From: a virus
Direction: 5' to 3' (one strand)
Length of the DNA stretch: 44,344 bases
Virus record (IMG/VR): IMGVR_UViG_3300042558_002580
Span: 1 to 44,344 of that record
The notes under the pieces were generated by a model that saw nothing but the letters and a program-made list of their open reading frames with translations, was not told the origin of the DNA and made no database searches. Within the stretch, counting starts at the first letter, position 1; the number at the start of each line of letters is the position of its first letter. Both the position numbers and the translations under genes were made by a program. Shown piece after piece: positions 4,404 through 40,294 of the stretch.

Positions 4404-7400
4404 ATGGATTCAATTCAATTTTCAGAGTTTTCTACAACTGGTGTTAATATATCTGACACCTTTGATATTTGGCGTCAAAAAACAAATGGTGTAGTAACAG
4501 AACTAACCGATTTGCGTAATGATATATCGCCGTTATTTTATAGTACTGGCCAAAACTCATCGTCATTGCTGCGTACTGTCACGCTTGATACACCACAGAC
4601 TATAACTGGTACAAAAACTTTTTCTGGCGGCACTGCGGTTTCTCCAATATTAAAAATTGATGCCGCCGGAGTTTATTATGAAGAGGGCACATTGGTTTCT
4701 ACCGTTCCTTTAAAAAGTAATAAAATAATAATTGGCTCTCAACTGCAACTGGGCGCGCACCAATACTCAATACCAGTAAACAACCCAACTGAATCTTCTC
4801 TCTTAAGAAAAGAAGGAAACTCTTTGGCATGGACGTCACTTAGTGGCATTATTGCCCAAATACAAAGTGAAGGAGCAGTAAACGTAAGTACCACAAATGT
4901 AGTACTTCCAATTGGAACAATACAACCATATAGTTCAGTTACAAGTGTACCAAGCGGATGGCTGTCTTGTGGTGGTGCACGTTTTAAGGGAGGAGATTAT
5001 CCAGAACTTGCTACGCTGCTATTAGCAACATATGGCCCAATTTTTACGACTCAAACTGGAAATACTATTGCTCCTTCAGTGTCATATAATGCTTCTTGGT
5101 GGTACACTCTCCCTGATTTACGCGGTCGAGTCACTCTTGGGGCTGGAACTGGCACTGATATAGCAGCCGGACAACAAACATTTACACTTGGCGGGTCTGG
5201 AGGTAAATATTCTCATGCATTGACAATTGCTGAGATGCCATCTCACGCTCATACGATAAGCACCGATGGCGCCCATACTCACTTTATATCAACTGCTGAT
5301 ATATTTAATACTTCTGCGTTTATTATCAATGATCAAAGTGGTGATAAGATAGTTAGTAGCGATAATGTTCCTACGTCTATAGGAAATTATCGTGATAATC
5401 GCTATGACACACAAAGTGCTGGTGCACACACCCATACCATAGGCAATACCGGAGGCAGCCAAACTCACTCTATAATTCAACCATATCTTGTTACAAACTA
5501 TATTATAAAGGCAACTCCTGATTCTGTAGTCAACACATTCATCGACCGTGGAAATGTTTTTGATATAATACGAGGCACAGAGTCTATTCAAAGTTTGTCG
5601 CTTGCAAATGGCGGCACCGGGGTTTTAAATTTAAGACATGACCCAACATTAACAATTAATGTTGATCGTCAATTGGGAATAGCAGAATCTTCAATTACGC
5701 CTGATAAACTTGCAACTAATTCTGTTGATCCATCTAAATTAAGTCTTGGTGGTCCATCATGGGATTCTGCCTCTGCAACTTTATTTGAAGGCAATGATCC
5801 TAATACTCGTAAAAGAGTTGCAACTCGCGAATATGTAGATGCACTTGTATTTAAAAAAGGACCTGCTGCAAAGTTAGTAAATAAACCTAGTCATGCACCG
5901 CACAGTTCTGCACCTGGTTTTGGTGAATTTTGTTATATAAATCATGACGGAGTTCCAATAATAACTGGAGGCAGTCCATATAGTAGATTTGGACACGCCG
6001 ACAAATATTCGCATTGCGAAATGCCATTGCCTGATAATAGAAAAGCAGTAGAATTGCATGTCACACGATACAGTGCATGTGCCCTTGACAATGAAGGCGA
6101 GTTATGGGCAATTGGACTCATTTGGCATAATCCCTATAATATGGTGCCATTTCCTGGAACAGCAAATGTAGATGTACGTGTAAAAGAATGGACAAAAGCA
6201 TACAACCCGCTCTATAACTATTCGGCTGGCAATAAAATTAAAAAGGTTATAATTAGTGGTGGATATGATATTCAGAACGTTGCTGTAATTGATACATCAA
6301 ATCGCCTTTGGATTGCAGGATATAACCAACATGGCATATTAGGCCGTGGTAACAATGGGAGAACTACCACAAACACTGGAACAAAACCAGCTGGAGAGAC
6401 AACACCAGTGCTCGAAAATGTCTTTGATGCTTGTATTATTGGTACATGGAATGGAACAATTGAAACTGCAACATGCATAGCGCTAACTTCAAGTGGCATA
6501 CACGTGTCTGGTTATGGTTCTACTGGCTTACGCGGTGATGGCTTAAATCCAGCAGCAGTTAATAGCACATTTAATACCGTTACAATACCAGACATAACTG
6601 ATTATTCATCATGTAGGTTGTATGCCGGAGGGGAAGACTCTGCTACAACTGCGTTTTTAGTTAGTGGCTCTGGAAATGTAATTTATGGTTGGGGCTATAA
6701 CGGCAATGGAATACTTGGTGATAACACAACATCAAATAAAAATCGTCCAACTGTAATTTGGGAAGATCCAAATTTAAATATTGATAAGGTTTATACTACA
6801 ACCCATACAGATGGAACAGGTGCCGCATATATATTTGGTAGCAAAAATAATGCGACAACTAAACTTGGCGCAGACATAACAACCTCTACAAGTGGTCACC
6901 TTTTAGGAACGTCTATCAGTTCTAGTGATACTGCTAATATAATTGCAACTAGCTCTCCAGGTATTGGAACTGGACGTGTGCAATGCTATCAATATTCTGG
7001 AACAGCATGGAATGCATATGGAGCAGTTATAAATGGTTCTGAAAATGCCAGTAATTTTGGTAATTCTGTAAGTTTAAGCTCGTCTGGTAATCGCCTTGCA
7101 ATTGGTGTACCTGACGGACAACGCGTAGGCACCAATATTTTTGGTCAAGTTCGCATTTATGATTATTCAGGCGGAGCATGGTCACAACTAGGAACTAATT
7201 TAAATGGAAGTCAAGCGGGAAGTAAATTTGGTGGTACCGTTGCGCTGTCTGGTGATGGAAATACCTTTATAGTTGGTGCACCAAATACAAGCAAATCATT
7301 TAATGGAACTGTTTCTACGCTTGTGGGACAAGTGCGTGCTTATTCTATAACTGGTACAACTATAACTCAACTTGGATCAGCAATAGATGGATCTAGTGGT

Positions 7401-8480
7401 GGTCAATATTGCGGATCTGCGGTTGCAATTAATAACAATGGGACTATAATTGCGGTTTCATCTGGAGGAAATGCAAATGCTGGAGTAGTTCGCGTGTATC
7501 AATTAGTGTCCGGTCAGTGGTCGCAACTTGGTGGAGATCTTGCTGGTAAAAGCGCCAATGATAATTCTAATAATATATCATTAAGTGGATCAGGCACACG
7601 CATTGCAATAGGCGCGCCTGGAGTTGATGATAATGGACTTAATAGCGGTCAAGTGCGCATATTTGAATATAATCAAACTACTACAACTTGGGAACAACTT
7701 GGCACCAATATTAATGGATCTGCAGCAGGATATGCTAGTGGTTCTGCAGTAGTGCTATCACGTGATGGACAAACTCTTGCAATAGGCACGCCAAATGCTG
7801 ACACTCTTGGAAAAACAGATAATGGATATGTACGTTTGTACAGACTCTCTGGTAATAGTTGGAAATTATTAACTGGCAATTTATCTGGAGAAAATTCTAC
7901 CGAAAAATCAGGATCAGTCCTTGCACTCAGTTCAAATGGTAATACTGTAATAATTGGTGCGCCAACATATAATGCTAATCGTGGACTTGTACGAGCAATA
8001 ACATTTTCATCAACTCCAACAATAACAAATGAATTATGGTGTTCTGGTACAAATACTGGAAATAAATTTGGTATAACTGGAAACAGCAATCAGTGGAGAC
8101 TGTCTGGACTACTTCCGTCTGGATATAGCCTTGAAGACTTTTGGTGTGGAAATGGTTTTTATTCAGACAACGTAAATTTTGCAAAAGCATACAGAGCGTC
8201 TGATAATAAATATTACTTGTTTGCTGTTGGAAAAAATGGCCATTATCAAGCTGGAAATGGAAGTGCACTTCAATTAAATAGTTGGACCCGTCTTAATTTA
8301 AGTTCAGAAATTGTAGAAAAAATAGTTGATATACAATGTGTATCACCTTATGACTCTGAAGACTATACAGTCTTGTTATTAGATGATGGTTCACTATATT
8401 TTTCTGGATATAATGCCTATATGATTGATCCAAATTTACCAAATAACGCATTGAGAACAGACTTTACACGCATTAAATAA
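4404..8480 (+). CDS. Giant tail fibre: tail-collar domain plus nested RCC1-like and FG-GAP-like beta-propellers
   Basis: This 1358-residue protein is mosaic. A phage tail-collar segment starts near residue 170 (LPIGTIQPYSSVTSVPSGW, then LSCGGARFKGGDYPEL). It is followed by the His-rich collar tail, with MPSHAHTIS and GAHTHTIGNTGG motifs near residues 280-350. RCC1-like blades occupy about residues 555-815 (NRLWIAGYNQHGILGRG; YGWGYNGNGILGDNT). About residues 831-1200 hold seven FG-GAP/integrin-type repeats, the first degenerate, each with a FG-x-S-V-A-L-S..G....IGAP core followed by GQVRIY...W.QLG. RCC1-like blades resume from about 1209 (ELWCSGTNTGNKFG; KNGHYQAGNG) to the end. The layout implies a receptor-binding fibre with two propellers as its distal part. 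The receptor is unknown. An AATAAATA late-type promoter precedes the start. Confidence 0.85.
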   Translation: MDSIQFSEFSTTGVNISDTFDIWRQKTNGVVTELTDLRNDISPLFYSTGQNSSSLLRTVTLDTPQTITGTKTFSGGTAVSPILKIDAAGVYYEEGTLVSTVPLKSNKIIIGSQLQLGAHQYSIPVNNPTESSLLRKEGNSLAWTSLSGIIAQIQSEGAVNVSTTNVVLPIGTIQPYSSVTSVPSGWLSCGGARFKGGDYPELATLLLATYGPIFTTQTGNTIAPSVSYNASWWYTLPDLRGRVTLGAGTGTDIAAGQQTFTLGGSGGKYSHALTIAEMPSHAHTISTDGAHTHFISTADIFNTSAFIINDQSGDKIVSSDNVPTSIGNYRDNRYDTQSAGAHTHTIGNTGGSQTHSIIQPYLVTNYIIKATPDSVVNTFIDRGNVFDIIRGTESIQSLSLANGGTGVLNLRHDPTLTINVDRQLGIAESSITPDKLATNSVDPSKLSLGGPSWDSASATLFEGNDPNTRKRVATREYVDALVFKKGPAAKLVNKPSHAPHSSAPGFGEFCYINHDGVPIITGGSPYSRFGHADKYSHCEMPLPDNRKAVELHVTRYSACALDNEGELWAIGLIWHNPYNMVPFPGTANVDVRVKEWTKAYNPLYNYSAGNKIKKVIISGGYDIQNVAVIDTSNRLWIAGYNQHGILGRGNNGRTTTNTGTKPAGETTPVLENVFDACIIGTWNGTIETATCIALTSSGIHVSGYGSTGLRGDGLNPAAVNSTFNTVTIPDITDYSSCRLYAGGEDSATTAFLVSGSGNVIYGWGYNGNGILGDNTTSNKNRPTVIWEDPNLNIDKVYTTTHTDGTGAAYIFGSKNNATTKLGADITTSTSGHLLGTSISSSDTANIIATSSPGIGTGRVQCYQYSGTAWNAYGAVINGSENASNFGNSVSLSSSGNRLAIGVPDGQRVGTNIFGQVRIYDYSGGAWSQLGTNLNGSQAGSKFGGTVALSGDGNTFIVGAPNTSKSFNGTVSTLVGQVRAYSITGTTITQLGSAIDGSSGGQYCGSAVAINNNGTIIAVSSGGNANAGVVRVYQLVSGQWSQLGGDLAGKSANDNSNNISLSGSGTRIAIGAPGVDDNGLNSGQVRIFEYNQTTTTWEQLGTNINGSAAGYASGSAVVLSRDGQTLAIGTPNADTLGKTDNGYVRLYRLSGNSWKLLTGNLSGENSTEKSGSVLALSSNGNTVIIGAPTYNANRGLVRAITFSSTPTITNELWCSGTNTGNKFGITGNSNQWRLSGLLPSGYSLEDFWCGNGFYSDNVNFAKAYRASDNKYYLFAVGKNGHYQAGNGSALQLNSWTRLNLSSEIVEKIVDIQCVSPYDSEDYTVLLLDDGSLYFSGYNAYMIDPNLPNNALRTDFTRIK

Positions 8481-8481
8481 T

Positions 8482-10149
8482 ATGTCAGATTATAAAAAAA
8501 TAATTTTAAAAAATAGTCCAGTTCCTGGTGCAGTTCCACTAGAAGATTTCTTGGATTTTGGCGAATTAGCACTTAATTATGCTGATAAAAAATTGTATTA
8601 TAAAGAACTTGGCGGAGGAATTGTTGTACATGAGACTCCATATCTTGACGACGAAGGCAGTCAAAATTCCGTGGTAAAGAGAAATGGTGATGGCTCTGGT
8701 GTTTTTAATGGAGTCATTAGTAATGTATCTGATCCAGACCTGTATGCATTAGATATTTCTTCTAGTGCGTCTACTACTGCTCAGGTGTCTGCTCTAAACA
8801 CTCAAACCGCAATAAATGCATCTGCAGTGAGTGGTATTGGTGCAAATATAAACAGCGCCTCTGGTATTGGCGCAATTATAAGCAGCGGTAGTTCTACAGC
8901 TGCAGTTATAAGCAGCAATAGTTCCACATATCATGCAGAATTTGGAAATAGAGCTACAAATAATTCATCTGCAATTGAAAGAATTCGTGGTGCATTTGTG
9001 TGGTTCTATAACACATTTAAAGGTCGATTGCAAACCGCAAATATAGCTGCTGATCGCAATTGGACACTACCAGATCGTTCAGGCACGATATTATTAGATT
9101 CAAGTATACGCAGTGGAAAAACAATCTACGTTGATGCTGGTGTCGGTACAGACACTCGTAATGGATTTACGGCATATTCATATACTCCGTATGCAACCAT
9201 AAGCGCTGCTGTAACAGACTCATCACCAGGTGATTTGGTTTATGTTCGAGCAGGTACATATAATATTACTTTATCGATCAACCTTAACGATGAAGGAAGC
9301 CTATATTTTGAACCAGGAGCAACAGTTAATGTTGCAACAGGTGTTACAGCATTTTCTTTTAATCAAACCACAAATATTTTTCCAGTAGCTAATTCAATAC
9401 GTATTCAAGGACATGCTGATTTTGTATTAACTGGCTCAGCAGGAATACTAACAATACCCACTTCAAATAATACTTCTTCACCACCTATTGTTGCATTTGA
9501 ATGTAATAGTATCACTGGTCCAAATGCCGCTACTGGTACGCTTTTTAATATTGAGAACGGAGTATTGTCTGTTGATGCTAAAACTATAGCAATGACAAAC
9601 ACATTTACTGCTTCAAATGCTACTGTATTTAATATTACTGGCACTGGAGATGTTACAGCAAGAATTCCATATGTATATTGTGGAAGATTTGTTAATGGTT
9701 CTGGCGCAGCTAATGTTGGTGGCGGTGCTGTTGCTCAGATAAATGCTGACGTTTGGACATTGGTAACATACAACGCAACAGCTGGTATGAGTCTAAGGTT
9801 AATTACTACTAACTTTAGAATAGTTAATTATAATCATGTTGGTGTAGGTGCTGCATTAAGTTGGACAGAAAATACCACATATGAAAGTCATGCTTTCCGA
9901 GGAATTACTTGGAATAGTTTGGCTGGTCAACCGAATATAACATTTGCTTCTACCAATGGTTCAACAACTAATAAAATTATTAGACTATCCCAAACAAATA
10001 TAATGCGTGCGGCAACGACAAACAGTTTAAGCTCTAATGTGCCTATAAATGTAGGAACATATGGTACATTTGCATCAGCGCCAGCAACTTCAAACGTTAC
10101 ATTTAAGATTGGTTCATTCACAGTAGATGCAGACGTAAACACTTATTAA
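8482..10149 (+). CDS. Tail fibre with N-terminal virion anchor and beta-helix (pectate-lyase-like) C-terminal domain
   Basis: 555 residues, starting 1 nt after the previous stop. The N-terminus carries a phage fibre anchor (ILKNSPVPGAVPLEDFL, then FGELALNYADKKLYYK), also found in the gene at 17968. A low-complexity Ser/Ala/Thr segment (about residues 90-150) follows, then a short RTILLDS fibre connector. From about residue 214 (GKTIYVDAGVGTDTRNGF, then PYATISAAV and VYVRAGTYNI) the sequence matches the entry of right-handed parallel beta-helix domains such as DUF1565/pectate-lyase folds. Such domains bind or cut polysaccharide. No catalytic residues can be assigned, so binding is as likely as hydrolysis. 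Probably a receptor-binding fibre or tailspike. Confidence 0.75.
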   Translation: MSDYKKIILKNSPVPGAVPLEDFLDFGELALNYADKKLYYKELGGGIVVHETPYLDDEGSQNSVVKRNGDGSGVFNGVISNVSDPDLYALDISSSASTTAQVSALNTQTAINASAVSGIGANINSASGIGAIISSGSSTAAVISSNSSTYHAEFGNRATNNSSAIERIRGAFVWFYNTFKGRLQTANIAADRNWTLPDRSGTILLDSSIRSGKTIYVDAGVGTDTRNGFTAYSYTPYATISAAVTDSSPGDLVYVRAGTYNITLSINLNDEGSLYFEPGATVNVATGVTAFSFNQTTNIFPVANSIRIQGHADFVLTGSAGILTIPTSNNTSSPPIVAFECNSITGPNAATGTLFNIENGVLSVDAKTIAMTNTFTASNATVFNITGTGDVTARIPYVYCGRFVNGSGAANVGGGAVAQINADVWTLVTYNATAGMSLRLITTNFRIVNYNHVGVGAALSWTENTTYESHAFRGITWNSLAGQPNITFASTNGSTTNKIIRLSQTNIMRAATTNSLSSNVPINVGTYGTFASAPATSNVTFKIGSFTVDADVNTY

Positions 10150-10159
10150 TTTTAAAAAT

Positions 10160-11401
10160 ATGAGTCAACAAACACTATACAACGATTTGGTAATTACTGG
10201 TGACCTAACAGTTTCTGGTACCACTACTACAATTAATACAAATAATCTAACTGTAGAAGATAAAAATATTATTATTGGTAATGTAGACTCTCCATCAAAT
10301 ATTACTGGAGATGGTGGCGGACTTACATTAAAAGCTGCTAGCGATAAAACCTTTAATTGGGTGTCAGGTGCTGATAGATGGACGTCAAATGTTGGCGTTG
10401 AAGCTAGTGCGCTTGTACGTACTGGAGGCACAACTGCGCAATTTTTAAAGGCTGATGGCACTACACAAGAATTAACTACTGGAAAAACGATTTATGTTGA
10501 TGCAGGTGTAGGTACAGACACGCGGCCTGGGTTTAACAAATATGATATATCAAAACCATATGCAACTATTGGCGCAGCAGTGTCTGCTTCTGCCAGTGAC
10601 GATACAGTTTATGTTCGTGCTGGAGCTTATACAATATCTTCACAAATTAGTTTAGACTCTAAGGGTAATATATATTTTGAAACTGGAACAGCCATTACGG
10701 TTGCTGGCAATACAGTTGCATTTTCTCTTACTGCAAATGAAACTAAAACAGTTAATGGATTTGCTCAATTTACGTTAAGTGATACAGCAGACATACTAAC
10801 ACAATCAAATGGAACTCTATTTTTAGAATATCAAAGCATTACAAGCACCTCAACAGACACACTATTTAGAATATCTGGAGGCACATTAAATACAAGTTTT
10901 GCGAGTATTGTAGCGTCTACAACAGACGGATTTGTGTTGACAGGAAGTGGAACACTGGTAATTCGCCGTTCCCACACCGCGTCATGTAAACAATTTTTAA
11001 ACTGCGATACTAGTGGAGCTGTTACTATGGACATATGGACTGTTGTAGGAGCTTCTACAGATGCAACTATTCGCGTTGTTAATCATAATGGATTTTCATA
11101 TCGTGGAGTTAACTTAAACAACAACTCATCTAGTCCATGCATCGTTTTTGCATACACCGGTGGAACTAATGCTCCAGTCTTACGAAACTTAAGATTAACA
11201 ACAAGCGGAACTGGTATTTCTATTAATGCTGCTACTGCAACAAGAGATATATTCTTAGATCAAATTAAAATAAATGCTGTTAACAGTCTATCATCTACCG
11301 CACCTACAACCGTTTATTCTACCACAACATACAGCACTGTCGCGCCTGACACTAACGTAACAGTAGACGGGCAATATAATATAATGTCTAAACTTTTCTA
11401 A
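10160..11401 (+). CDS. Tail fibre with beta-helix (pectate-lyase-like) domain
   Basis: 413 residues. The N-terminus is a beta-repeat shaft (NDLVITGDLTVSGTTTTI, then NNLTVEDKNIIIG) typical of phage short-fibre and trimeric shaft domains. A linker with QFLKADGTTQELTTGKTIYV begins near residue 93 and leads into a beta-helix-type domain (DAGVGTDTRPGF, PYATIGAAV, VYVRAGAYTI). The same linker recurs in the gene at 17968. The last about 33 residues (TTVYSTTTYSTVAPDTN onward to MSKLF) are duplicated almost exactly at the end of the small gene at 12801-13010. It is one of three beta-helix fibres in the region and probably a glycan-binding or glycan-cutting adhesin. Its substrate is unknown. Confidence 0.7.
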   Translation: MSQQTLYNDLVITGDLTVSGTTTTINTNNLTVEDKNIIIGNVDSPSNITGDGGGLTLKAASDKTFNWVSGADRWTSNVGVEASALVRTGGTTAQFLKADGTTQELTTGKTIYVDAGVGTDTRPGFNKYDISKPYATIGAAVSASASDDTVYVRAGAYTISSQISLDSKGNIYFETGTAITVAGNTVAFSLTANETKTVNGFAQFTLSDTADILTQSNGTLFLEYQSITSTSTDTLFRISGGTLNTSFASIVASTTDGFVLTGSGTLVIRRSHTASCKQFLNCDTSGAVTMDIWTVVGASTDATIRVVNHNGFSYRGVNLNNNSSSPCIVFAYTGGTNAPVLRNLRLTTSGTGISINAATATRDIFLDQIKINAVNSLSSTAPTTVYSTTTYSTVAPDTNVTVDGQYNIMSKLF

Positions 11402-11798
11402 AACTATGGCAACAGGACCACTAACAATAAATAATTATTTAATAAATAACAATACAACGATAACTGGTGACTTAACAGTTGATGGAACTATTATTACAAC
11501 ATTTGATTCGACTATAACTGGAAGTGGTAAAACTTTTAGCAATGCTGATTCTGGTAAAACATTTCAAGTCTCTGGAACAAATACATTAGTTCTCCCTACC
11601 TATGCATCAGCAAAAACTGGATGGAGCATTGGCATTGTAAATGTAGGCGGAAATACACTTACTGTTAATATTGCTGGGGGATCTGGAAATACAATTAATG
11701 ATGTTACAACATTTAACAATACAGTAAAATATTCTTTAGTTAATATCTATAAATCTGATATATCTGGTAAATTTATTGCAATAGGTGTCTTGTATTAG
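11302..11798 (+). repeat. Direct repeat copy 1 (fibre end plus connector gene)
   Basis: This segment covers the 3' end of the gene at 10160 plus the whole connector gene. It recurs at 12911-13410. By eye the first roughly 130 nt of the two copies differ at two positions (11337 region G/T and 11376 region T/C). Identity falls further in, where copy 2 has a small length change near the connector N-terminus. Confidence 0.85.
11406..11798 (+). CDS. Small fibre connector protein, copy 1 of a duplicated pair
   Basis: 130 residues, starting 4 nt after the preceding stop. It has a TGDLTVDGTIITTFDSTITG beta shaft followed by a compact beta domain (TLVLPTYASAKTGWSIGIVN, then NVGGNTLTVNIAGG). The protein at 13015-13410 is a close paralogue with the same ending (SDISGKFIAIG.LY). 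Both are followed at once by a larger gene whose product starts MNI. The likely role is a fibre segment or connector for the distal protein encoded next. No enzyme motif is present, and function is inferred from duplication and context only. Confidence 0.6.
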   Translation: MATGPLTINNYLINNNTTITGDLTVDGTIITTFDSTITGSGKTFSNADSGKTFQVSGTNTLVLPTYASAKTGWSIGIVNVGGNTLTVNIAGGSGNTINDVTTFNNTVKYSLVNIYKSDISGKFIAIGVLY

Positions 11799-11800
11799 TC

Positions 11801-12793
11801 ATGAATATACGAAATATTAATCTTGCAGCAGCATCGAGCAATATTATTAATCCTGCATTTGGCGCGATGCGTTCTAAAACCGATGCAGAAATGCTTTCTA
11901 TGTTAGGAACAAAGCCAGGCGGTGCAGTTAACATGGAATTATGGTCTGCTAGAAACTCAACAGCTAATCCTCCAACATACACTCGAAACCCAAATTTATG
12001 GTGCAATGAACTTGTGTCTCAACTTACTGCTGCCGTAGCTTATAAAGATGATGTAACTGGTGGTAAACAAAGCTATGGCGGCATATTAATAAGCCCGCGA
12101 CACGTTCTTTATTGTGATCATGCTCACCCTCATGCAAAAAACACATGGGAAGTAAATTATAATAGTAATAAAGAATGTAAGTTGCACTTTGTTCTTGAGA
12201 ACGGAAATGTAGTAGAAGCTATACAAATTGCGCAAACTCTAGTTAGGTCTACTCGCGATAGGCCTGGAGCATACACCCCGGCCGATTGGCCAAGCGGAGT
12301 GGCACCTGCCCAAGATTTGTGTGTAGCAGTACTTGATAGAGACGTTCAGGCGCTTGGTGTGCATGTTATGCCAATACCAAAATTAACATTGCAAGACTTG
12401 GGTTATATCGCAACTCCTGTTATCTCACATATTCATGTCACGCAGGGATACGAAAGAACTACTTCTATAATCCCACCGACACCACGTTCTGATTATCCAC
12501 AATATCATAATTCAATGGTTGCGGTAGGATATGGTGGTATGTCAGACCCTCCATTAAATTCAACACTAAAAACTATTGATTATGCAGTATGGAACGGAGA
12601 CAGTGGCACACCGTCAATGATACTATTAAATGGAAAATTATATTTACACAGACTTATAGGAGCATCAAATATTCCCAATAACATTGGTCATATTAACGCA
12701 ATGATTGCAGTCGCTGAAGACGATGCTATATCTCGTGGAAGGTTAGCCGCACGTACTGGAATAACAGTTCCACTAGTGCCAGTTTTAATTTAA
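11801..12793 (+). CDS. Putative chymotrypsin-fold (trypsin-like) serine protease in the fibre cluster
   Basis: 330 residues. The central part reads as a trypsin-like core. GGILISPRHVLYCDHAHP gives the entry strand and a candidate catalytic His107, placed as in the usual G.LIs..hvLTAaHC. AQDLCVAVLDRDV gives Asp172 in a D-[IL]-x-V-x-x-L context. VWNGDSGTPSMILLNGK gives Ser268 in an intact GDSG motif followed by a strand. Spacing H107-D172-S268 fits the fold. There is no signal peptide; residues 1-75 are a probable attachment region. It lies between two copies of a connector gene and starts MNI like the propeller gene at 13412, so it is likely a virion-associated fibre or tip protease. It could cut host surface protein or mature a neighbouring fibre. 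Activity is inferred from motifs only. Confidence 0.7.
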   Translation: MNIRNINLAAASSNIINPAFGAMRSKTDAEMLSMLGTKPGGAVNMELWSARNSTANPPTYTRNPNLWCNELVSQLTAAVAYKDDVTGGKQSYGGILISPRHVLYCDHAHPHAKNTWEVNYNSNKECKLHFVLENGNVVEAIQIAQTLVRSTRDRPGAYTPADWPSGVAPAQDLCVAVLDRDVQALGVHVMPIPKLTLQDLGYIATPVISHIHVTQGYERTTSIIPPTPRSDYPQYHNSMVAVGYGGMSDPPLNSTLKTIDYAVWNGDSGTPSMILLNGKLYLHRLIGASNIPNNIGHINAMIAVAEDDAISRGRLAARTGITVPLVPVLI

Positions 12794-12800
12794 ATATAAT

Positions 12801-13010
12801 ATGTCTACTACATCTATTAATATTATACCTCAAAACGGTAACTCTTCTGTAGTTGCTATTGATTGCGGCACTTCAACTCCAAAATTAGGCGGTACAGTAG
12901 ATATATCCGAACCTACAACCGTTTATTCTACCACAACATACAGCACTTTCGCGCCTGACACTAACGTAACAGTAGACGGGCAATACAATATAATGTCTAA
13001 ACTTTTCTAA
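12801..13010 (+). CDS. Short fibre protein whose C-terminus duplicates that of the 10160 fibre
   Basis: 69 residues. Residues 1-36 are unique (MSTTSINIIPQNGNSSVVAI). The remaining 33 (PTTVYSTTTYSTFAPDTN to the MSKLF end) repeat the C-terminus of the fibre encoded at 10160-11401 with one substitution (Phe for Val). The DNA is nearly identical too. It may be a genuine mini-protein pairing with connector copy 2, or the truncated stub of a former full fibre left by the duplication. It starts 7 nt after the protease stop. Confidence 0.5.
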   Translation: MSTTSINIIPQNGNSSVVAIDCGTSTPKLGGTVDISEPTTVYSTTTYSTFAPDTNVTVDGQYNIMSKLF

Positions 13011-13410
13011 AACTATGGCAACAGGACCACTAACAATAAATAACAACACAACAATAACTGGTGACTTAACTGTTAAGTCAGACTTAACAGTTGATGGTAA
13101 TATTATTACGTCAATCGATTCGACTATAACAGGAAGCGGTAAAACTTTTAGCAATGCTGATTCTAGTAAAACATTTCATGTTTCTGGAACAAATACACTA
13201 GTTCTTCCTACCTATGCATCCGCTGATACTGCATGGAGCATTGGCATTGTAAATGTAGGCGGAAATACACTTACAATTAATATTGCAACAGGTTCAGGAA
13301 ATACAATTAATGATGCAGTCACAATAAGCAATACAGTAAAATATTCATCAATTTATATCTATAAATCTGATATATCTGGTAAATTTATTGCAATAGGCAC
13401 GTTATATTAA
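12911..13410 (+). repeat. Direct repeat copy 2 (fibre end plus connector gene)
   Basis: Second copy of the segment at 11302-11798. Together the copies bracket the protease gene and the 5' part of the 69-residue gene, about 1.1 kb in all. Such a pair can recombine to delete or swap the bracketed gene. Confidence 0.85.
13015..13410 (+). CDS. Small fibre connector protein, copy 2
   Basis: 131 residues, paralogous to the 130-residue product of 11406-11798: same start (MATGPLTINN), same NTLVLPTYAS..... WSIGIVN core and the same FIAIG.LY end. A short indel near residues 10-25 gives copy 2 a doubled shaft element (GDLTVKSDLTVDG) where copy 1 has extra Asn/Tyr/Leu residues. It is followed 1 nt later by the propeller gene at 13412. 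Probably a fibre shaft or connector; no enzymatic motif. Confidence 0.6.
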   Translation: MATGPLTINNNTTITGDLTVKSDLTVDGNIITSIDSTITGSGKTFSNADSSKTFHVSGTNTLVLPTYASADTAWSIGIVNVGGNTLTINIATGSGNTINDAVTISNTVKYSSIYIYKSDISGKFIAIGTLY

Positions 13411-13411
13411 C

Positions 13412-14620
13412 ATGAATATCAGTGATTTTAGAAAAGTAGTATTATCTAACCAAACTATAATACTAGACTCACCAATGCTAAACGCAATTGCGGCAGGTGA
13501 TGATTTTGGGTTTAGCGTTGCGATGAATGCTACCGGTACAGTTTGTATAATAGGCGCTCCAAATTTTGATACAAATAATAAAGGGCGAGCAGTTGTCTAT
13601 GCATTCAATGCAACTGCTAAATTATGGGAACAGCGAGGAGCTCCATTCCTTGGAGCTCTTAGCGGTCAAAAGCTTGGTTATTCTGTTGCTATAAATGGTG
13701 ATGGAACCAGAATAGTTATTGGCAGTCCAGGAAATTCTAATGTTCAAGTTTATTCTTGGAATGAAACGTCATATACTGTTATAAGAAATAGTACTGCAAC
13801 TGCAACCGCTGCTGGTTGGAGCGTTGCGATAAATTCTGCTGGAAATCGTATTGCAGTTGGAGCACCAACAAATAGTGCCACTGGAACTGATAGAGGAGCA
13901 GTTGAAATATTAGATTATTCTGGAAGCGGAACAACTTGGAATTCACATGGAATAATCGCATATGGAGAGGCAAATGGAGATAAATCTGGTTGGTGTGTAT
14001 CATTAAATTCGAGTGGAAATAGAGTTGCAATTGGTGCACCATTTAACGATATTGGAGGAACAATTACTCAAGCAGGTCATACTAGAGTTTATCATAATAC
14101 ATCCGGAACAAGTTGGATCAAATTAGGAATAGATCTAGATGGTTCCAGTATAAATGAACAGTCTGGATTTAATATCTCGTTAAATGATGTTGGAGATATT
14201 GTTGCGATAGGAAATATACAGGATGACACCAGCGCAAACAACGATGCTGGAACGACTAGAGTGTATAAATGGAGCGGTGGTGCTGGCACATCTGGATCAT
14301 GGTCTCAGCAAGGACTAGATTTAAATGGAAATCCTGGAGACTTACTTGGCTATTCAGTGTCACTAAATTCTGAAGGAAATATATTGGCAATTGGAGCTCC
14401 ATTTAGAGACAATGCTAGTGGAATCGACTCGGGAGGGGCCCAAGTTTATGAATTTGATAATACTAATGTCATTTGGAAACAAATACGTCCATTATTACAA
14501 GGACAATCTGTCGGTGAACAATCTGGGCTTTCTGTATCTCTTAGTAAAAATTCTAAAAAAATAATAGTTGGCGCGCCATATACATCTACTGGAGGAACTG
14601 CTAGAATTTATTCAATATAA
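13412..14620 (+). CDS. Seven-repeat FG-GAP-like beta-propeller protein (fibre tip)
   Basis: 402 residues, almost all of it seven tandem repeats of about 50-60 residues. Each carries a DxxGFSVAMNATG..CIIGAP-type core and a strand pattern ending A.VY.F......W.Q.G. Examples are GYSVAINGDGTRIVIGSP, GWCVSLNSSGNRVAIGAP and GYSVSLNSEGNILAIGAP. Seven copies fit a complete integrin-alpha-type propeller. The repeats resemble those embedded in the fibre at 4404, so the two are paralogous domains. The start MNISDF mirrors the MNI start of the protease after the other connector copy. It is likely a distal adhesin, with protein or glycan ligand unknown. Confidence 0.75.
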   Translation: MNISDFRKVVLSNQTIILDSPMLNAIAAGDDFGFSVAMNATGTVCIIGAPNFDTNNKGRAVVYAFNATAKLWEQRGAPFLGALSGQKLGYSVAINGDGTRIVIGSPGNSNVQVYSWNETSYTVIRNSTATATAAGWSVAINSAGNRIAVGAPTNSATGTDRGAVEILDYSGSGTTWNSHGIIAYGEANGDKSGWCVSLNSSGNRVAIGAPFNDIGGTITQAGHTRVYHNTSGTSWIKLGIDLDGSSINEQSGFNISLNDVGDIVAIGNIQDDTSANNDAGTTRVYKWSGGAGTSGSWSQQGLDLNGNPGDLLGYSVSLNSEGNILAIGAPFRDNASGIDSGGAQVYEFDNTNVIWKQIRPLLQGQSVGEQSGLSVSLSKNSKKIIVGAPYTSTGGTARIYSI

Positions 14621-14630: not shown

Positions 14631-16199
14631 ATGTCAACACCAATTAATTTAGGTCCATATTTACTAAATGCTCCCACAGAAGTTGAAAAGGGGCATATAC
14701 GTGATAGTTTAGATCTTGGATCTGCATCACTCCTACAGGGGGAATTTTTGGACATCAATAGATTAAAATTTACTGACCCCACCAACTCTACGCGTAGTAT
14801 TATTCTTGATAAGACTCTTTTTGGATCTGCAGTGGCGGATCGCTTACGTTTTGCTCGTGCCATAAATGTTACTGGAGAAGTTACTACATCTTCTCCAATT
14901 CCTCTTTTTGATGGCACCGAAAATATTAATATACCAATAAGCATTAATGCTGGTGCAATTACTGAATCTAAACTTGCAACAGACGCTGTAGTTGCTATAA
15001 AAATAAAAGATGGTGAAATTACTCCGGCAAAACTTTCTGCGGGTGGTCCAAGTTGGACTAATACTACTACACTTTTAACAAGAGCTTTAGAACTTGGAAG
15101 TGGAATTACAAGTAATGATAATTCTTTTATAGATTTTCATTCATCTGTGCCACTAGTTGATTATGACGCCCGCATTATACGCAGCCCTGGGGTAGATGGA
15201 GCATTAAGCATCCTTAATGCTGGTGCTGGTGCTATAAACATTCGAGGGCTGTCAGTAGCGTCAGACAATACTGTGACATCATCACGTCAAATAATTGGAG
15301 CCATAGAAATTATTGGAAATCAAATTAATACGACTTTTGCAAATAACGCAGAAATTGCGCTTAACTTTGAAAGCAGTGATAGCACAGTTACAAACTTTTT
15401 AAACACTACAATATTCAATGGCAAGCAAGAAATTTCTGCAAGGTTTTTTGGTGACACAAAAACACTTGAAACATATGGGCCGTGTCGTTCAGTAACAAAC
15501 GGACAAGTTGGGTGGGCTACCGCTGGACTTGAAACGCGCAGCACATCTGGAAATACATTGCTAGCATTACATGCTGTTGGTTCAACTGCAACACTGCTAA
15601 AACATGTTCGTGGCGGATCAGGATTAGAAATACGTGACGCGGGAGACACCGCCTTTGCTCCGCTAAAGGCTTCAACATTTACAGGTAATAATGCGCTCTA
15701 TTTAAACTACGAAACTCCAACAATATATCTTCAAGACACAAATCATCGTGGTTCGATGATATATGTAGACAACAATATATTTTCTATACGTCGTTCGTCT
15801 GGCAATAATTCTACAACGATGCAAGATCTTAATGGTCGTTGGCCATTAGACATTAACTTAGAGACCAATAATGCGACCTTTGGTGCAGATGTAAATGCTG
15901 CTTCATTTACATCTCGTTCTTCGATTCGTTATAAGAAAGACATACGCCCGCTACAAGATTCGCTGGCTAAAGTAAACTCGTTAAACGGAGTTTCATATGT
16001 TTGGAAAGAAACTAAAAAGGCTGATCTTGGATTAATAGCAGAAGAGGTGAATGAGGTTTATCCAGAACTTGTGCATAAGACAGAAACTGACGAGGTTGAA
16101 GGCATAGATTATGGAAAATTGACTGCAGTACTCATTGAAGCAGTAAAAGAGTTGACTGGTCGTGTGCAGACACTCGAAAAACAATTAGAACAACGATAA
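14631..16199 (+). CDS. Tail fibre with C-terminal S74 intramolecular chaperone
   Basis: 522 residues. The C-terminal about 95 residues are a clear peptidase S74 / endosialidase-type chaperone: SSIRYKKDIRPLQDSLAKV, then VSYVWKETKKADLGLIAEEV and EVYPELV, YGKLTAVLIEAVKEL and a terminal coiled coil (LTGRVQTLEKQLEQ). Ser431 and Lys436 have the five-residue spacing of the Ser/Lys dyad used for self-cleavage in this family. The chaperone trimerises the fibre and is normally released. The N-terminal half has shaft and linker elements, including ITESKLATDAV and LSAGGPSW, similar to a linker in the 4404 fibre. Its own late promoter lies 7 nt upstream. It probably forms a trimeric receptor-binding fibre. 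Confidence 0.85.
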   Translation: MSTPINLGPYLLNAPTEVEKGHIRDSLDLGSASLLQGEFLDINRLKFTDPTNSTRSIILDKTLFGSAVADRLRFARAINVTGEVTTSSPIPLFDGTENINIPISINAGAITESKLATDAVVAIKIKDGEITPAKLSAGGPSWTNTTTLLTRALELGSGITSNDNSFIDFHSSVPLVDYDARIIRSPGVDGALSILNAGAGAINIRGLSVASDNTVTSSRQIIGAIEIIGNQINTTFANNAEIALNFESSDSTVTNFLNTTIFNGKQEISARFFGDTKTLETYGPCRSVTNGQVGWATAGLETRSTSGNTLLALHAVGSTATLLKHVRGGSGLEIRDAGDTAFAPLKASTFTGNNALYLNYETPTIYLQDTNHRGSMIYVDNNIFSIRRSSGNNSTTMQDLNGRWPLDINLETNNATFGADVNAASFTSRSSIRYKKDIRPLQDSLAKVNSLNGVSYVWKETKKADLGLIAEEVNEVYPELVHKTETDEVEGIDYGKLTAVLIEAVKELTGRVQTLEKQLEQR

Positions 16200-17967: not shown

Positions 17968-20900
17968 ATGCCAACTATATCAACTACATTTATTCTAAAA
18001 AATTCCTCAATAATTGGAAAAGTACCATTAGAATCAGATTTAACTTATGGAGAAGTCGCGTTAAATTATGCCGACGGTAGATTATACTATAAAAATGCTA
18101 ATAATAATATTAGTCAATTAAATCCAATACTCACTGGAGCGGCGTCATCTATTTCTACTGAAAACTTGACGTCATCAAGAGCATTGGTGTCAAATGCGTC
18201 CGGTAAAGTTGCAATATCAAATGTAACTTCTGATGAATTGGGGTATTTATCTAGTGCCACTTCGAATATACAAAATCAACTGAATAACAAAGCAAACCTT
18301 GCAAACCCAACATTCTCTGGAACAGTTGGTGGTATCACAAAGAGTATGGTTGGACTCGGCAACGTGGACAATACAAGTGACCTAGATAAACCAATATCTA
18401 CTGCAACTGCGACTGCATTAAACCTTAAAGCTAACATTGCAAACCCAACATTCTCTGGAACAGTTGGTGGTATCACAAAGAGTATGGTTGGACTCGGCAA
18501 CGTGGACAATACAAGTGACCTAGATAAACCAATATCTACTGCAACTGCGACTGCATTAAACAATAGAGTTGATTTAAGTGAATCACAAACTATAACTGGA
18601 ACAAAAACAATAAATGCTCCAATAACGGTTAATAATAAATTCGTTACTATTCGTGGAACACCAACAGAATCACAATATGGGTTAAATATTATAAATAATG
18701 GCAACTTTGACCCAGGCACTCCATTGGTAGTTGATGGTAGAGCGCGGGTTGTTCATGGTATGACATTTGCCGCAGGTATACCAAACTTTACAAATGGCAG
18801 TGATCATACTCACGTTCAGTGGACAACGCAAAATCGTCAAAGTTGGCAAATGATTCAAAATGGCGGAGCAAGTACTACTAATGCAAATACTTTTACGTTG
18901 ACTACTGTAATGACTACTGCGTCTTTACAATTTTTTAATGAGTCAAATATACACAGCATCGACACACGAGAAGTTGTGGTGACAAACAATGTATTTCCAT
19001 TTCTTGCGACTGGTTTAAAAATAAATTATAACGCTAATGCAACTGGATTAAATGTTGGTGATTTTATTCAAATAACTATGAATCCAGCTCCTCCTGGTGT
19101 AGTAGCAAATACCTACAACGGGATCGTTACTGCTGGTCCTACAACAGTAACGATCGATGGGCAATCTAAAATTCAATATACCTTTTCGTTAGAAGGATTT
19201 AATAGCGTAAATTGGACTCCAAGTTTAGCAAGTTTTTCAACTACATTTGTTAATCCAGTAAGTGGTTTTAATAATATTAGAGTTTCATTTGCACCAACAG
19301 AATTAACCGGAACACGAGTGTCATTGACTGGAGCATGGTCTGGTATAGGCAGATATGTTAAAGTTGAAATGACAGGACATAATGCATTTGAGGGACTACC
19401 ATTAGTATTTACTGTTGCTGGAAGCACTAAAATTGGATTAGTAGTTGGAAGTTATAATACATTTGTTAAAAAAGTCATTGATGCCAATACGTTTATAATT
19501 TCTGTTGGAAATGCTATTAGCGGGTTTAATACTACTAGTGGAACTTATGTGGGAGCCACTGGTTGGACATTATATAGAGGATCTACTGATGCAATTCACC
19601 AATATACTCCATCAACATCACATTTTATTTTCCATCGTTTTCCAACTTCTAATACGACCCCTACAACAACTGGTGGTAGTAAAGCAATATCTTTAGGAAA
19701 TTGCGCAGAAGTTGAAGGAAACTTTTCATATTCTTTTGGTCATAAGGCAGGAGTGTTTGCTGATCATTCTATGGCACTTGGCGGAGAAGATAGTTTTATT
19801 AATGCTAATTATAGCACTACAGTTGGAGGTCAAGGACTTGTTTCATCTGGTGTATATCAAACAATTATTGGCAAATATAATACGATTGATACATCAAACA
19901 CAAAACCATTTATTGTTGGTTGGGGATCGAGCGACTCTAGTCGATCGAACCTTTTAGAGTTATCAAATACGACTCTTACGCTAAACACTGCAATAAATGC
20001 AAGTGGTTCAGCAACTGCTTCATCATTCATAAGATCTGGCGGCACAAGTGCACAATTTTTAAAGGCTGATGGAAGCACTCAAGAATTAGTCACCAGTAGG
20101 ACAATATACGTTGACACAAACGGAACAGACACAAGAGGATCGTTAAGCCAGTACAGTATTTCCGTGCCGTTCGCCACTATCGGCGCAGCTATGGCTGCAT
20201 CAGTAATCGGTGACACAGTGCGCGTCCGTGCTGGCAACTACACCATCACGCAAACAATCCTCCTTAATGGTAGAGGCAACCTGCATCTTGAAGAGGGAGC
20301 CGTTGTTACGTGTAGCGTTTCTGGTAATCCTGTATTTTTGCTACTCGCAAACGAATCCAAATCAATTAGCGGAGGCGGTCAGTTTATCATAACAGGAAGC
20401 ACAAACGGATTTTGGGTTCAATCTGGAGGCGACCTGCAAACACAACTGTGCTCAGTTGAATGCGCCACTATAAGCACCACAACGTCACCACTGAATGCTG
20501 CGACAATTTTTGATGTGTCAACTGGAGTTCTGGTTGTAAATGCTGAAACTGTTTACGCGCTGGCATCAACCATAATTAGCTGCGCTGGTACAAGCAGCAA
20601 CCTACACTACGCTGTAAAGTTTACCTATTGCTCGCGATTTGCATTTTTCCCAACTTCAGGATCATCGGCGCAGATGTCTTGCGACTGCTGGACAATCGCA
20701 TGTTACGGTCCTAAATGTTTTCAGATTGTTGGTGGTGTGGTTGGAGCGAAATACGAAACATTGATAGATAATTTCGGTAACGGCACGTTATTCTCGTTGG
20801 AATATGGAAATGATTCCACCCCAAATGCGTTGGTAATCAGAGGTGGACGGGCAATAACATATTCAACAAATCCGTGTATTAGATTCACCACAACAACGGG

Positions 20901-21084
20901 AACTGGTAAGTCCGTCCGCCTTATTGGTGATCCTTTTTTCCATACTGCTGGAGATAATTCCATTTTTTCTGAACCTTCAAATCCAAGGACGGTTCTTTCG
21001 TCATTTGCAAGCTCGAATAAACCAGTTGGTGGAGGTGTTAGTATTACAGGAAATTATTCTGTAAATGCTGGATTCACCTCTTAA
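17968..21084 (+). CDS. Large mosaic tail fibre: anchor, GLGNVDN repeats, YadA-head-like motif, beta-helix tip
   Basis: 1038 residues. The N-terminal anchor (ILKNSSIIGKVPLESDL, then YGEVALNYADGRLYYK) matches that of the 8482 fibre, implying the same or an equivalent docking site. Two identical 42-residue blocks centred on ITKSMVGLGNVDNTSDLDKP lie at residues 111-152 and 157-198, encoded by a perfect 125-nt repeat. Residues about 590-645 show YadA-head-type motifs (YSFGHKAGVFADHSMALGG, YSTTVGGQGL). A linker (SGGTSAQFLKADGSTQEL) leads at about residue 712 into a third beta-helix domain (SRTIYVDTNGTDTRG, PFATIGAAM, VRVRAGNYTI). The last third is distinctly GC-richer than the rest, suggesting recent exchange of the tip. 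Likely receptor-binding fibre. Confidence 0.75.
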   Translation: MPTISTTFILKNSSIIGKVPLESDLTYGEVALNYADGRLYYKNANNNISQLNPILTGAASSISTENLTSSRALVSNASGKVAISNVTSDELGYLSSATSNIQNQLNNKANLANPTFSGTVGGITKSMVGLGNVDNTSDLDKPISTATATALNLKANIANPTFSGTVGGITKSMVGLGNVDNTSDLDKPISTATATALNNRVDLSESQTITGTKTINAPITVNNKFVTIRGTPTESQYGLNIINNGNFDPGTPLVVDGRARVVHGMTFAAGIPNFTNGSDHTHVQWTTQNRQSWQMIQNGGASTTNANTFTLTTVMTTASLQFFNESNIHSIDTREVVVTNNVFPFLATGLKINYNANATGLNVGDFIQITMNPAPPGVVANTYNGIVTAGPTTVTIDGQSKIQYTFSLEGFNSVNWTPSLASFSTTFVNPVSGFNNIRVSFAPTELTGTRVSLTGAWSGIGRYVKVEMTGHNAFEGLPLVFTVAGSTKIGLVVGSYNTFVKKVIDANTFIISVGNAISGFNTTSGTYVGATGWTLYRGSTDAIHQYTPSTSHFIFHRFPTSNTTPTTTGGSKAISLGNCAEVEGNFSYSFGHKAGVFADHSMALGGEDSFINANYSTTVGGQGLVSSGVYQTIIGKYNTIDTSNTKPFIVGWGSSDSSRSNLLELSNTTLTLNTAINASGSATASSFIRSGGTSAQFLKADGSTQELVTSRTIYVDTNGTDTRGSLSQYSISVPFATIGAAMAASVIGDTVRVRAGNYTITQTILLNGRGNLHLEEGAVVTCSVSGNPVFLLLANESKSISGGGQFIITGSTNGFWVQSGGDLQTQLCSVECATISTTTSPLNAATIFDVSTGVLVVNAETVYALASTIISCAGTSSNLHYAVKFTYCSRFAFFPTSGSSAQMSCDCWTIACYGPKCFQIVGGVVGAKYETLIDNFGNGTLFSLEYGNDSTPNALVIRGGRAITYSTNPCIRFTTTTGTGKSVRLIGDPFFHTAGDNSIFSEPSNPRTVLSSFASSNKPVGGGVSITGNYSVNAGFTS
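18299..18423 (+). repeat. 125-nt perfect direct repeat, copy 1
   Basis: Identical by eye to 18437-18561. The two are offset by 138 nt (46 codons), so the repeat is in frame and encodes the GLGNVDN fibre motif. Confidence 0.9.
18437..18561 (+). repeat. 125-nt perfect direct repeat, copy 2
   Basis: Second copy of the repeat at 18299-18423. Between the copies lie 13 nt (CTTAAAGCTAACA), which differ from the sequence before copy 1. Confidence 0.9.
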
Positions 21085-23214: not shown

Positions 23215-23535
23215 ATGGAACCAGAAAGATCGATGCTAAAAGAGTTTCTAGAGGGTGGTTGGATAATTCCTCTAGTTGGAGCGGCGGGGATGCTTGCCCG
23301 ACTCATGACAGCAAAAAAAGAATATACCATTCTCGAGCAGTTTAAAAATATAATGTCTGCCGCCCTAGCTGCATCAATCGCCTGGTTTATACTAGAACAG
23401 ACCGACATTTCAAGTTTTTATAAAGCGATTACCTATGGAATTATAGGCGTCGTATCTCCAGAGATTATTGGAGGAATTATAAAGCTTGCAAAGCAGTTTG
23501 AACGCTCACCAGAAAAATATGTGAAGAAGCCATGA
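23215..23535 (+). CDS. Holin-like small membrane protein (LydA/holin superfamily III-like)
   Basis: 106 residues with three hydrophobic segments, about residues 14-33 (GGWIIPLVGAAGMLARLMTA), 46-61 (MSAALAASIAWFILEQ) and 71-92 (AITYGIIGVVSPEIIGGIIK), and a short positively charged C-terminus. The GGW..PL.GA.GMLARL start matches LydA-type phage holins. A holin would permeabilise the inner membrane so that lysin reaches the cell wall. No endolysin is visible in the window. The stop overlaps the start of a second small membrane protein (ATGA). Confidence 0.65.
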   Translation: MEPERSMLKEFLEGGWIIPLVGAAGMLARLMTAKKEYTILEQFKNIMSAALAASIAWFILEQTDISSFYKAITYGIIGVVSPEIIGGIIKLAKQFERSPEKYVKKP

Positions 23536-33751: not shown

Positions 33752-34396
33752 ATGAAGTTAATTACTGAACATTCAGAAGATTTAAGATATATCTCAGAAG
33801 CTGCCGATAATGGTGAAAAGAAATTCATCATTGACGGTATTTTTATGCAAGCTGAGCAGGTGAATCGTAATCGCCGTATATATCCAAAAACAGTTTTAGA
33901 AAAAGCCGTGCGTAAATACGTATCGGAATATGTTAATAAAGGACGTGCTGTAGGTGAACTTAATCACCCAGAAGGTCCTACTATTAATCTTGATAAAGTT
34001 TCACATCGCATTACCGAACTGCAATGGAACGGCAATGATGTTGTTGGAAAGGCGCTTATACTTGACACACCGATGGGTAAAATTGTGAAAGGACTTTTAG
34101 AAGGTGGTTGTCAACTAGGCGTCTCTAGTCGTGGTATGGGAACCGTTGCGAGTAAAAACGGCCAATCCTTTGTTAATGACGACTTTGTGTTGTCAACAGT
34201 TGATATTGTTCAAGACCCAAGTGCTCCATCTGCTTTTGTAAATGGAATTATGGAAGGTGTCGAATGGATCTGGGATAATGGTTTGTTAAAGGCGCAACAG
34301 CTTGAAAAGTATGAGACAGAAATCAAAAAGGCCTCTTCTGCAAGTCTTGCCGAAGCACAAACAAAAATCTGGACTGATTTCCTCTCCAAACTCTAA
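33752..34396 (+). CDS. gp21: Prohead core protease gp21
   Basis: 214 residues, matching T4 gp21 (212). The family segments are FIIDGIFMQAEQVNRNRRIY, GELNHPEG with the candidate catalytic His72, LGVSSRGMG with candidate catalytic Ser125/126, and VDIVQDPSAPSAFVNGIMEG with candidate Asp. It is a serine protease with a herpesvirus-assemblin-like fold (S80-type) that cleaves scaffold and capsid proteins after Glu in L/I-x-E sites. It lies between the core protein and scaffold genes, the usual position. Confidence 0.95.
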   Translation: MKLITEHSEDLRYISEAADNGEKKFIIDGIFMQAEQVNRNRRIYPKTVLEKAVRKYVSEYVNKGRAVGELNHPEGPTINLDKVSHRITELQWNGNDVVGKALILDTPMGKIVKGLLEGGCQLGVSSRGMGTVASKNGQSFVNDDFVLSTVDIVQDPSAPSAFVNGIMEGVEWIWDNGLLKAQQLEKYETEIKKASSASLAEAQTKIWTDFLSKL

Positions 34397-40273: not shown

Positions 40274-40281
40274 GTGATTTA

Positions 40282-40289
40282 TATAAATA
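40282..40289 (+). promoter_or_regulatory. T4-type late promoter TATAAATA of the uvsW-splitting endonuclease
   Basis: Perfect octamer ending 5 nt before the ATG at 40295. Confidence 0.7.
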
Positions 40290-40294
40290 TCAAT

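Follow-up and report, generated by a model that had tools for sequence, protein, structure and literature searches.

At positions 11,801 to 12,793 of the stretch analysed here, an open reading frame on the plus strand encodes a trypsin-like serine protease among tail-fibre genes. The whole stretch, hereafter the window, is a 44,344-base T4-like virus record (IMGVR_UViG_3300042558_002580 in IMG/VR), on which genes for the major capsid protein, portal, sheath, gp14/gp15-like proteins, terminase, scaffold and an S77 prohead protease were recognised. Its capsid protein shares at most 56% identity with those of the phages listed, the nearest of which infect Methylophilales and Pelagibacter; at such an identity, the naming of a host from these nearest phages was rejected. 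The features on which the argument relies are given below, in window positions:

11298..11768, plus strand: direct repeat, upstream copy, about 470 nt (repeat search)
11406..11798, plus strand: fibre-like gene, 130 aa, the proposed adaptor (ORF, 2 nt upstream of the protease gene)
11801..12793, plus strand: S1-like (chymotrypsin-fold) serine protease, 330 aa, ATG start, with an N-terminal helix at residues 18-35 and the protease domain at about 42-317 (ORF, profile match, fold search, dN/dS)
12119..12121, plus strand: predicted catalytic His107, codon CAT, in ISPRHVLYCDH
12314..12316, plus strand: predicted catalytic Asp172, codon GAT
12602..12604, plus strand: predicted catalytic Ser268, codon AGT, in GDSGTP
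12801..13010, plus strand: chimeric 69-aa ORF, beginning as an LRR gene found in a relative (L005) and ending as the fibre gene 10160-11401
12907..13380, plus strand: direct repeat, downstream copy (repeat search)
13015..13410, plus strand: second adaptor copy, 131 aa (blastp 79.4% over 136 columns)
13412..14620, plus strand: FG-GAP repeat protein, 402 aa (Pfam FG-GAP_2, 4e-24)
14631-16196: fibre gene with an S74 chaperone domain (Pfam)
23215-23535: holin-like protein, 106 aa, recognised by eye, about 10 kb from the protease gene
33752-34396: prohead protease of family S77 (PF03420), in the head gene cluster

The residues His107, Asp172 and Ser268 follow one another in the order of peptidase family S1 and clan PA(S), and they stand, together with the GDSGTP motif, where the initial annotation had placed them. 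The likeness to family S1 (PF00089) extends to the PRHV....H and GDSGxP motifs and to a double beta-barrel recovered by structure search, whereas the window protein differs in its extra N-terminal helix, in its location among phage fibre genes and in that no signal peptide is evident by eye, an absence already remarked upon in the initial annotation.

Searches with the window protein as a single query gave few matches. In Pfam the best was DUF316 (nematode trypsin-6-like), at 18.5 bits against a cut-off of 21.2 and with an E-value of 0.0016, and the profile check against PF00089 that had been proposed for this protein gave no match; for this reason the protein is described here as S1-like and of clan PA, and curated S1 membership is not claimed. 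No match was obtained in PHROGs, in the phage collection or in bacterial genome contigs, while plasmids returned one chance match only and PDB sequences nothing significant (chance chitinase matches, E 0.3 or worse). An 86-residue query against the phage collection gave chance matches only, at E 3 or worse. Since the PHROG match is absent and the Pfam match lies below threshold, standard annotation misses this protease.

The fold was approached with AlphaFold2, which gave a model of pTM 0.73 and mean pLDDT 64 from 27 alignment rows and a model of pLDDT 26.5 from 3 rows. In a Foldseek comparison with the PDB, the 50 matches listed all have the S1 fold and include a few inactive homologues. The best match has an E-value of 7.3e-06 and an rmsd of 7.6, and its TM-score is 0.39 by model length and 0.50 by target length. 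VIA-align superposed residues 43-317 of the model on residues 18-250 of a thrombin chain (Z 15.0, rmsd 3.4 over 209 residues), and the best match in a viral structure library (1.3e-11) came from an uncultured Caudovirales phage and is an uncharacterised protein. The chymotrypsin double beta-barrel anticipated by the initial annotation was thus matched by both Foldseek and VIA-align on the pTM 0.73 model, the weak spot of which is the stretch of residues 224-266 directly before Ser268, in the pocket region, where pLDDT falls below 50; with this region poorly modelled, the naming of an S1 pocket residue was rejected. By sequence and predicted structure, the open reading frame is confirmed as an intact S1-like (chymotrypsin-fold) serine protease of clan PA; its activity is predicted.

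By using a degenerate pattern for ISPRHVxxAxH, 41 contigs were matched in IMG/VR, and 35 of them carry a literal GDSG 118-165 residues past the motif start; the remaining six comprise four that are open at the 3' end (including L043, which reads NDSS), one with GDSS and one with YDSG. A motif scan derived from an alignment of 11 of these members yielded 78 viral loci in 2.9 million virus contigs, together with 10 loci in bacterial genome contigs. Among the matches to the pattern W[ND]GDSGTP, one candidate (L008) was rejected as a coincidence within a portal protein, the others being known members. When a profile of the same 11 relatives, built with the window excluded, was run against 9,033 ORFs (minimum length 60 aa), it recovered the window ORF at an E-value of 3.4e-13, over profile positions 4-221 of 240. 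The family set was obtained from 160 ORFs at E ≤1e-5, of which 16 were left out of all counts as they hold no full domain; the remaining 144 full domains were reduced to 66 non-redundant members by an 85% identity cut. These members share 17-41% identity with the window protein in whole-protein alignment, the nearest being L133 (36%, 346 columns, E 9e-62) and L123 (32%), and 5/66 match PF00089 at E 0.001. The family profile A4, searched against PDB sequences, met mainly Ig-like domains through its N-terminal part, and protease chains only at E 0.2 or worse.

Across the 66 members, His107 and Ser268 are kept without exception, and Asp172 and Asp267 in 65 each; the sole member without Asp172 (L020) carries Gly there. 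Many members were found through the His107 motif, so a fair test of this residue is offered by the 20 members, the window included, that carry neither N-terminal search motif, and all 20 keep the His, Asp and Ser. The view that chymotrypsin-fold proteases are uncommon at phage tips, expressed when the gene was first annotated, agrees with the recovery of a relative from just one of 50,697 phage records (the podovirus MW202510, with two family members as queries) and with the 78 loci of the motif scan. A stronger statement, according to which the family abounds in virus contigs and is missing from isolated phages, was rejected, as 78 in 2.9 million and 1 in 50,697 were obtained by different methods and do not show it.

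Six loci in IMG/VR hold close relatives of the window protease, three at 100% identity, two at 95% and one, L006, at 86% over the matched part, residues 1-174. Between the window and L005, dN/dS is 0.23 for the protease gene and 0.20-0.38 for five adjoining genes, values by which the protease gene is judged to be under purifying selection.

The fibre-gene surroundings described in the initial annotation hold up: collar/gp10-like, FG-GAP and S74 fibre genes lie around the protease gene, which is thereby placed within the tail-fibre module, the location looked for in a virion-associated tail enzyme. The 130-aa fibre-like protein, for which no Pfam match was found at E 0.05, may act as an adaptor, and the FG-GAP gene behind the second adaptor copy parallels the protease behind the first. 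Direct repeats, with 137 nt at 98% and 300 nt at 87% and a spacing of about 1,610 nt, flank the protease gene and contain the end of the fibre gene 10160-11401 and the adaptor gene. As adaptor and protease sit between these repeats, the protease looks like an exchangeable fibre cassette, which recombination between the repeats would remove or swap. The protease gene of L005 is followed by a 685-aa LRR gene (9001-11058), of which the window keeps the first residues only, at the start of the chimeric 69-aa ORF, which by its two-part composition is a probable recombination scar. Repeats and chimeric ORF are what an exchange of tips by recombination would leave behind. Within the gene, change is seen in L006, whose protease carries an insert of about 184 residues.

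The gene neighbourhoods of the relatives were compared, the window itself and 3 of the 66 members without a call being left out. The upstream neighbour is on the same strand at 52 of 55 loci, and in 46 of these 52 the gap is 50 nt or less. A fibre-type N-terminus was recognised in 11/55 upstream genes, 2/59 downstream genes and 15/949 genes overall, an enrichment that is partly circular because the profile was built from such neighbour genes. The upstream gene of L074 has in common with the window fibre genes 8482-10149 and 17968-21084 the motif GExALNxAD..LYY, as seen by eye, and in three loci (L039, L021, L018) a fibre-type gene and the protease are duplicated together in tandem. From 114 neighbours called, 93 are on the same strand and of at least 90 aa, and 85 of these were scanned after removal of redundancy. 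They matched 120 families. Of the 25 listed, 21 bear a name, and 17 of those 21 are families of tail or virion proteins, with two or three neighbours matched by each. In L133, L123 and their kin L128-L132, a TerL-like gene follows the protease gene at about 4-7 kb and fibre-like genes are near (by eye), and in MW202510 it closes the structural module, directly behind a gene annotated as rhamnogalacturonan lyase.

Other proteases were also noticed in these neighbourhoods. A phrog named protease was matched by three neighbours, among the matches listed, and a gene near the S1-like gene in L111 and L114 bears the subtilisin-type motifs HGTHVAG and GTSMASP. Further protease-like genes, recognised by subtilisin motifs or by the PHROG named protease, thus stand beside the S1-like gene at L114 11311-13875, L111 3778-6342 and L133 1392-6236.

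In some relatives the protease domain is part of a virion protein. Three of the 66 members (L051, L063, L106) match the T4 gp15 tail-sheath stabiliser (PF16724; phrog_227), with the protease domain behind gp15 in a single ORF (L051 7100-8764; L063 8810-10747; L106 8909-10825). Residues 1-258 of L051 match the gp15 of the window itself (phmmer E 5e-77) before the protease domain follows, and the same locus holds gp13/14-like, TerL, sheath, tube and portal genes; L063 and L106 have the same arrangement with a weaker gp15 similarity and an adjoining portal-like gene. Such fusions would put the protease at the joint of neck and tail. A baseplate-wedge-like N-terminus precedes the protease in L022 and L025, which form one lineage. 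Matches to phrog_215 (structural protein with Ig domain) in 9/66 members and to Big_2 in 7/66 are weaker evidence for a virion location, since Ig-like domains occur in cell proteins too.

The 10 loci in genome contigs all come from metagenome-assembled genomes, eight of Verrucomicrobiota (named Puniceicoccaceae, Verrucomicrobia, Verrucomicrobiales, Verrucomicrobiota and Kiritimatiellae), one of Pirellulaceae and one of Nomurabacteria. Signal-peptide-like N-termini were seen by eye in L141, L142 and L143, as was a PEP-CTERM-like end on the protein encoded beside L135, L137, L138 and L141. Secreted cellular proteases therefore seem to exist in the family, and the phages may have taken the protease domain from them.

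The reading favoured here, to which we assign a probability of about 0.57, is that an uncultivated T4-like myovirus carries an active trypsin-like protease on its virion, where the enzyme forms a tip or appendage of the tail-fibre system and cuts a host surface protein. It is built on homology, triad, fold, selection, the location in the fibre module and the fusions in relatives, from which we infer that the protease is present in this virion and attached by the adaptor, that it is active, and what it cuts and when. The protease would carry no signal peptide and would probably join the particle beside the 130-aa fibre-like protein or by means of it. At adsorption it would cut an outer-membrane protein, S-layer or pilus of the host, and this cleavage would uncover a receptor, clear a path or free a particle that has bound wrongly. 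Digestion of a host layer and maturation of a fibre, the two purposes put forward by the initial annotation, are both conceivable, and the cutting of a host surface protein is the best guess. The virion role preferred in that annotation gains from the fusions to gp15 and to a baseplate-wedge-like protein (L051, L063, L106, L022, L025); for the window phage itself, whose protease gene is free-standing and outside any such fusion, that role is a proposed one. This free-standing gene, the cellular homologues that look secreted and the relatives near lysis-like genes were all counted against the virion reading.

These same three points lend some weight to a soluble enzyme, encoded in a late operon and absent from the virion, which would be released at lysis or act in the dying cell, with host proteins, host proteases or surface debris as conceivable targets. 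The protein of this phage has neither a fusion nor a signal peptide evident by eye, and lysis-like genes are close in several relatives: two endolysin families, each matching two neighbours, are among those listed, a short holin-like protein is the next gene in L034, L038, L062 and L071 (by eye), and L088 and L089 encode a homologue of the holin-like 106-aa protein of the window 1-2 kb from the protease. The holin-like gene of the window itself is about 10 kb off, and the neighbours of the protease that were scanned included no recognisable lysis gene. The fusion of relatives to virion proteins and the fibre-type genes upstream of them also speak against a soluble enzyme, which is considered unlikely.

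Unlikely to a very similar degree is a maturation protease that would act in the infected cell or during assembly and cleave a neighbouring fibre or baseplate protein, leaving the host surface untouched. The place among fibre genes and the tight packing, with only 2 nt before the protease in the window and the short gaps in 46/52 relatives, would suit such a role, and phages do use assembly proteases, the window encoding one of family S77. The head, however, is already served by this S77 enzyme, and an S74 chaperone domain, of a self-processing family, is present in the fibre gene 14631-16196. The gp15 and baseplate-wedge-like fusions and the tandem copies (L039, L018) fit a displayed enzyme better, and maturation of fibres as a general role is made less likely by homologues that are fused to the neck protein gp15.

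It is improbable that the protein is a dead protease fold serving only in binding, that is, an adhesion module comparable to the Ig-like or lectin-like domains on phage particles. Some of the S1-fold proteins listed by Foldseek are inactive homologues, and the cassette next to the protease ends in an FG-GAP protein without a recognised enzyme domain. In L006, moreover, about 184 residues are inserted in frame (8496-9056) in the loop before the Asp172 strand; the insert, searched as 187 aa, gave no Pfam, PDB-sequence or phage-collection match, and its G+C of 0.439 is slightly above that of its flanks (0.41). Against this stands the retention of the full triad in 65/66 members at 17-41% identity to the window, which weakens the idea of a pure adhesin, as an adhesin would not need catalytic residues. 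An artefact, by chance motif or misassembly, might be read from the sub-threshold Pfam match (E 0.0016) and from the absence of PHROG, significant PDB-sequence and phage-collection matches, and it is already refuted by three identical contigs, purifying selection, the profile match at 3.4e-13 and the fold match.

Trypsin-like proteases have been reported from T4-like phages before. PMC10783043 attributes a trypsin-like serine protease to the rhizobial phages phiM9 and P10VF. The phiM9 protein, phiM9_102, is a 230-aa enzyme of Trypsin_2 (Trypsin_2/HtrA-like) type with a membrane-anchor-like start and GMSGG in place of GDSG (by eye), encoded next to the major head gene, on the other strand and away from the fibre genes, and its relatives are found in 26/50,697 phage records. 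With filters off, phiM9_102 scored -1.5 bits against the window protein (phmmer) and -1.1 bits against the family profile, showing no similarity by these measures, and this profile found no match at E 1 in the phiM9 ORFs or in the HTVC008M stretch that was fetched. Both proteases are thus trypsin-like and occur in T4-like phages, but they differ in family and in genomic place. The S77 prohead protease (T4 gp21 type) is likewise a phage-encoded serine protease, yet of another family and within the head gene cluster.

The enzymes usually described from phage tails have glycans or peptidoglycan as their target. Like the window protease, tail-spike depolymerases and other glycan enzymes are encoded with fibre genes and presumed to act on the host surface at adsorption; they attack glycans, whereas the window protease is predicted to act on peptide bonds. 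In the main text of a 2018 review on entry enzymes of tailed phages (PMC6116005), 'protease', 'proteolytic', 'proteolysis' and 'trypsin' are absent as word starts. The Ig-like decorations represented by T4 Hoc (PMC10385173, in the part available) resemble the present family as variable domains on the outside of the particle that occur on several virion proteins, our domain being sometimes accompanied by Big_2; Hoc is described there as a capsid fibre and not an enzyme, whereas the window family is a protease with a kept triad. Within the open-licence PMC literature searched, neither a trypsin-like protease as a phage tail or virion enzyme nor an earlier description of the window family, of its place among fibre genes or of its fusions to virion proteins was found. 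Neither the fold, which is ancient, nor a trypsin-like protease in a phage is new; what appears new is the recurrent use of such a protease as a part of the phage particle.

A broader proposal is put forward tentatively, and we would sooner doubt it than rely on it: that these proteins form an undescribed class of trypsin-like proteases that recurs on the virions of uncultivated tailed phages and perhaps derives from the secreted proteases of Verrucomicrobiota-like hosts. The domain would be plugged into fibre cassettes, baseplates, the gp15 neck and Ig-bearing proteins as promiscuously as Ig-like domains are, would be swapped via repeated adaptor segments, and would open proteinaceous cell surfaces at infection. 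If this is true, chymotrypsin-fold proteases in fibre cassettes, baseplates and necks would add host-surface proteolysis to the enzymatic activities of phage tails.

Two further genes of the window were noted in passing. A 1358-aa protein encoded at 4404-8480 combines collar and gp10-C domains with subsequent RCC1-like and FG-GAP repeats, an unusual mix of repeats for a baseplate or fibre protein. Behind a UvsW-like helicase gene, at 40274-41065, lies a gene with a NUMOD3 motif, a probable homing endonuclease.
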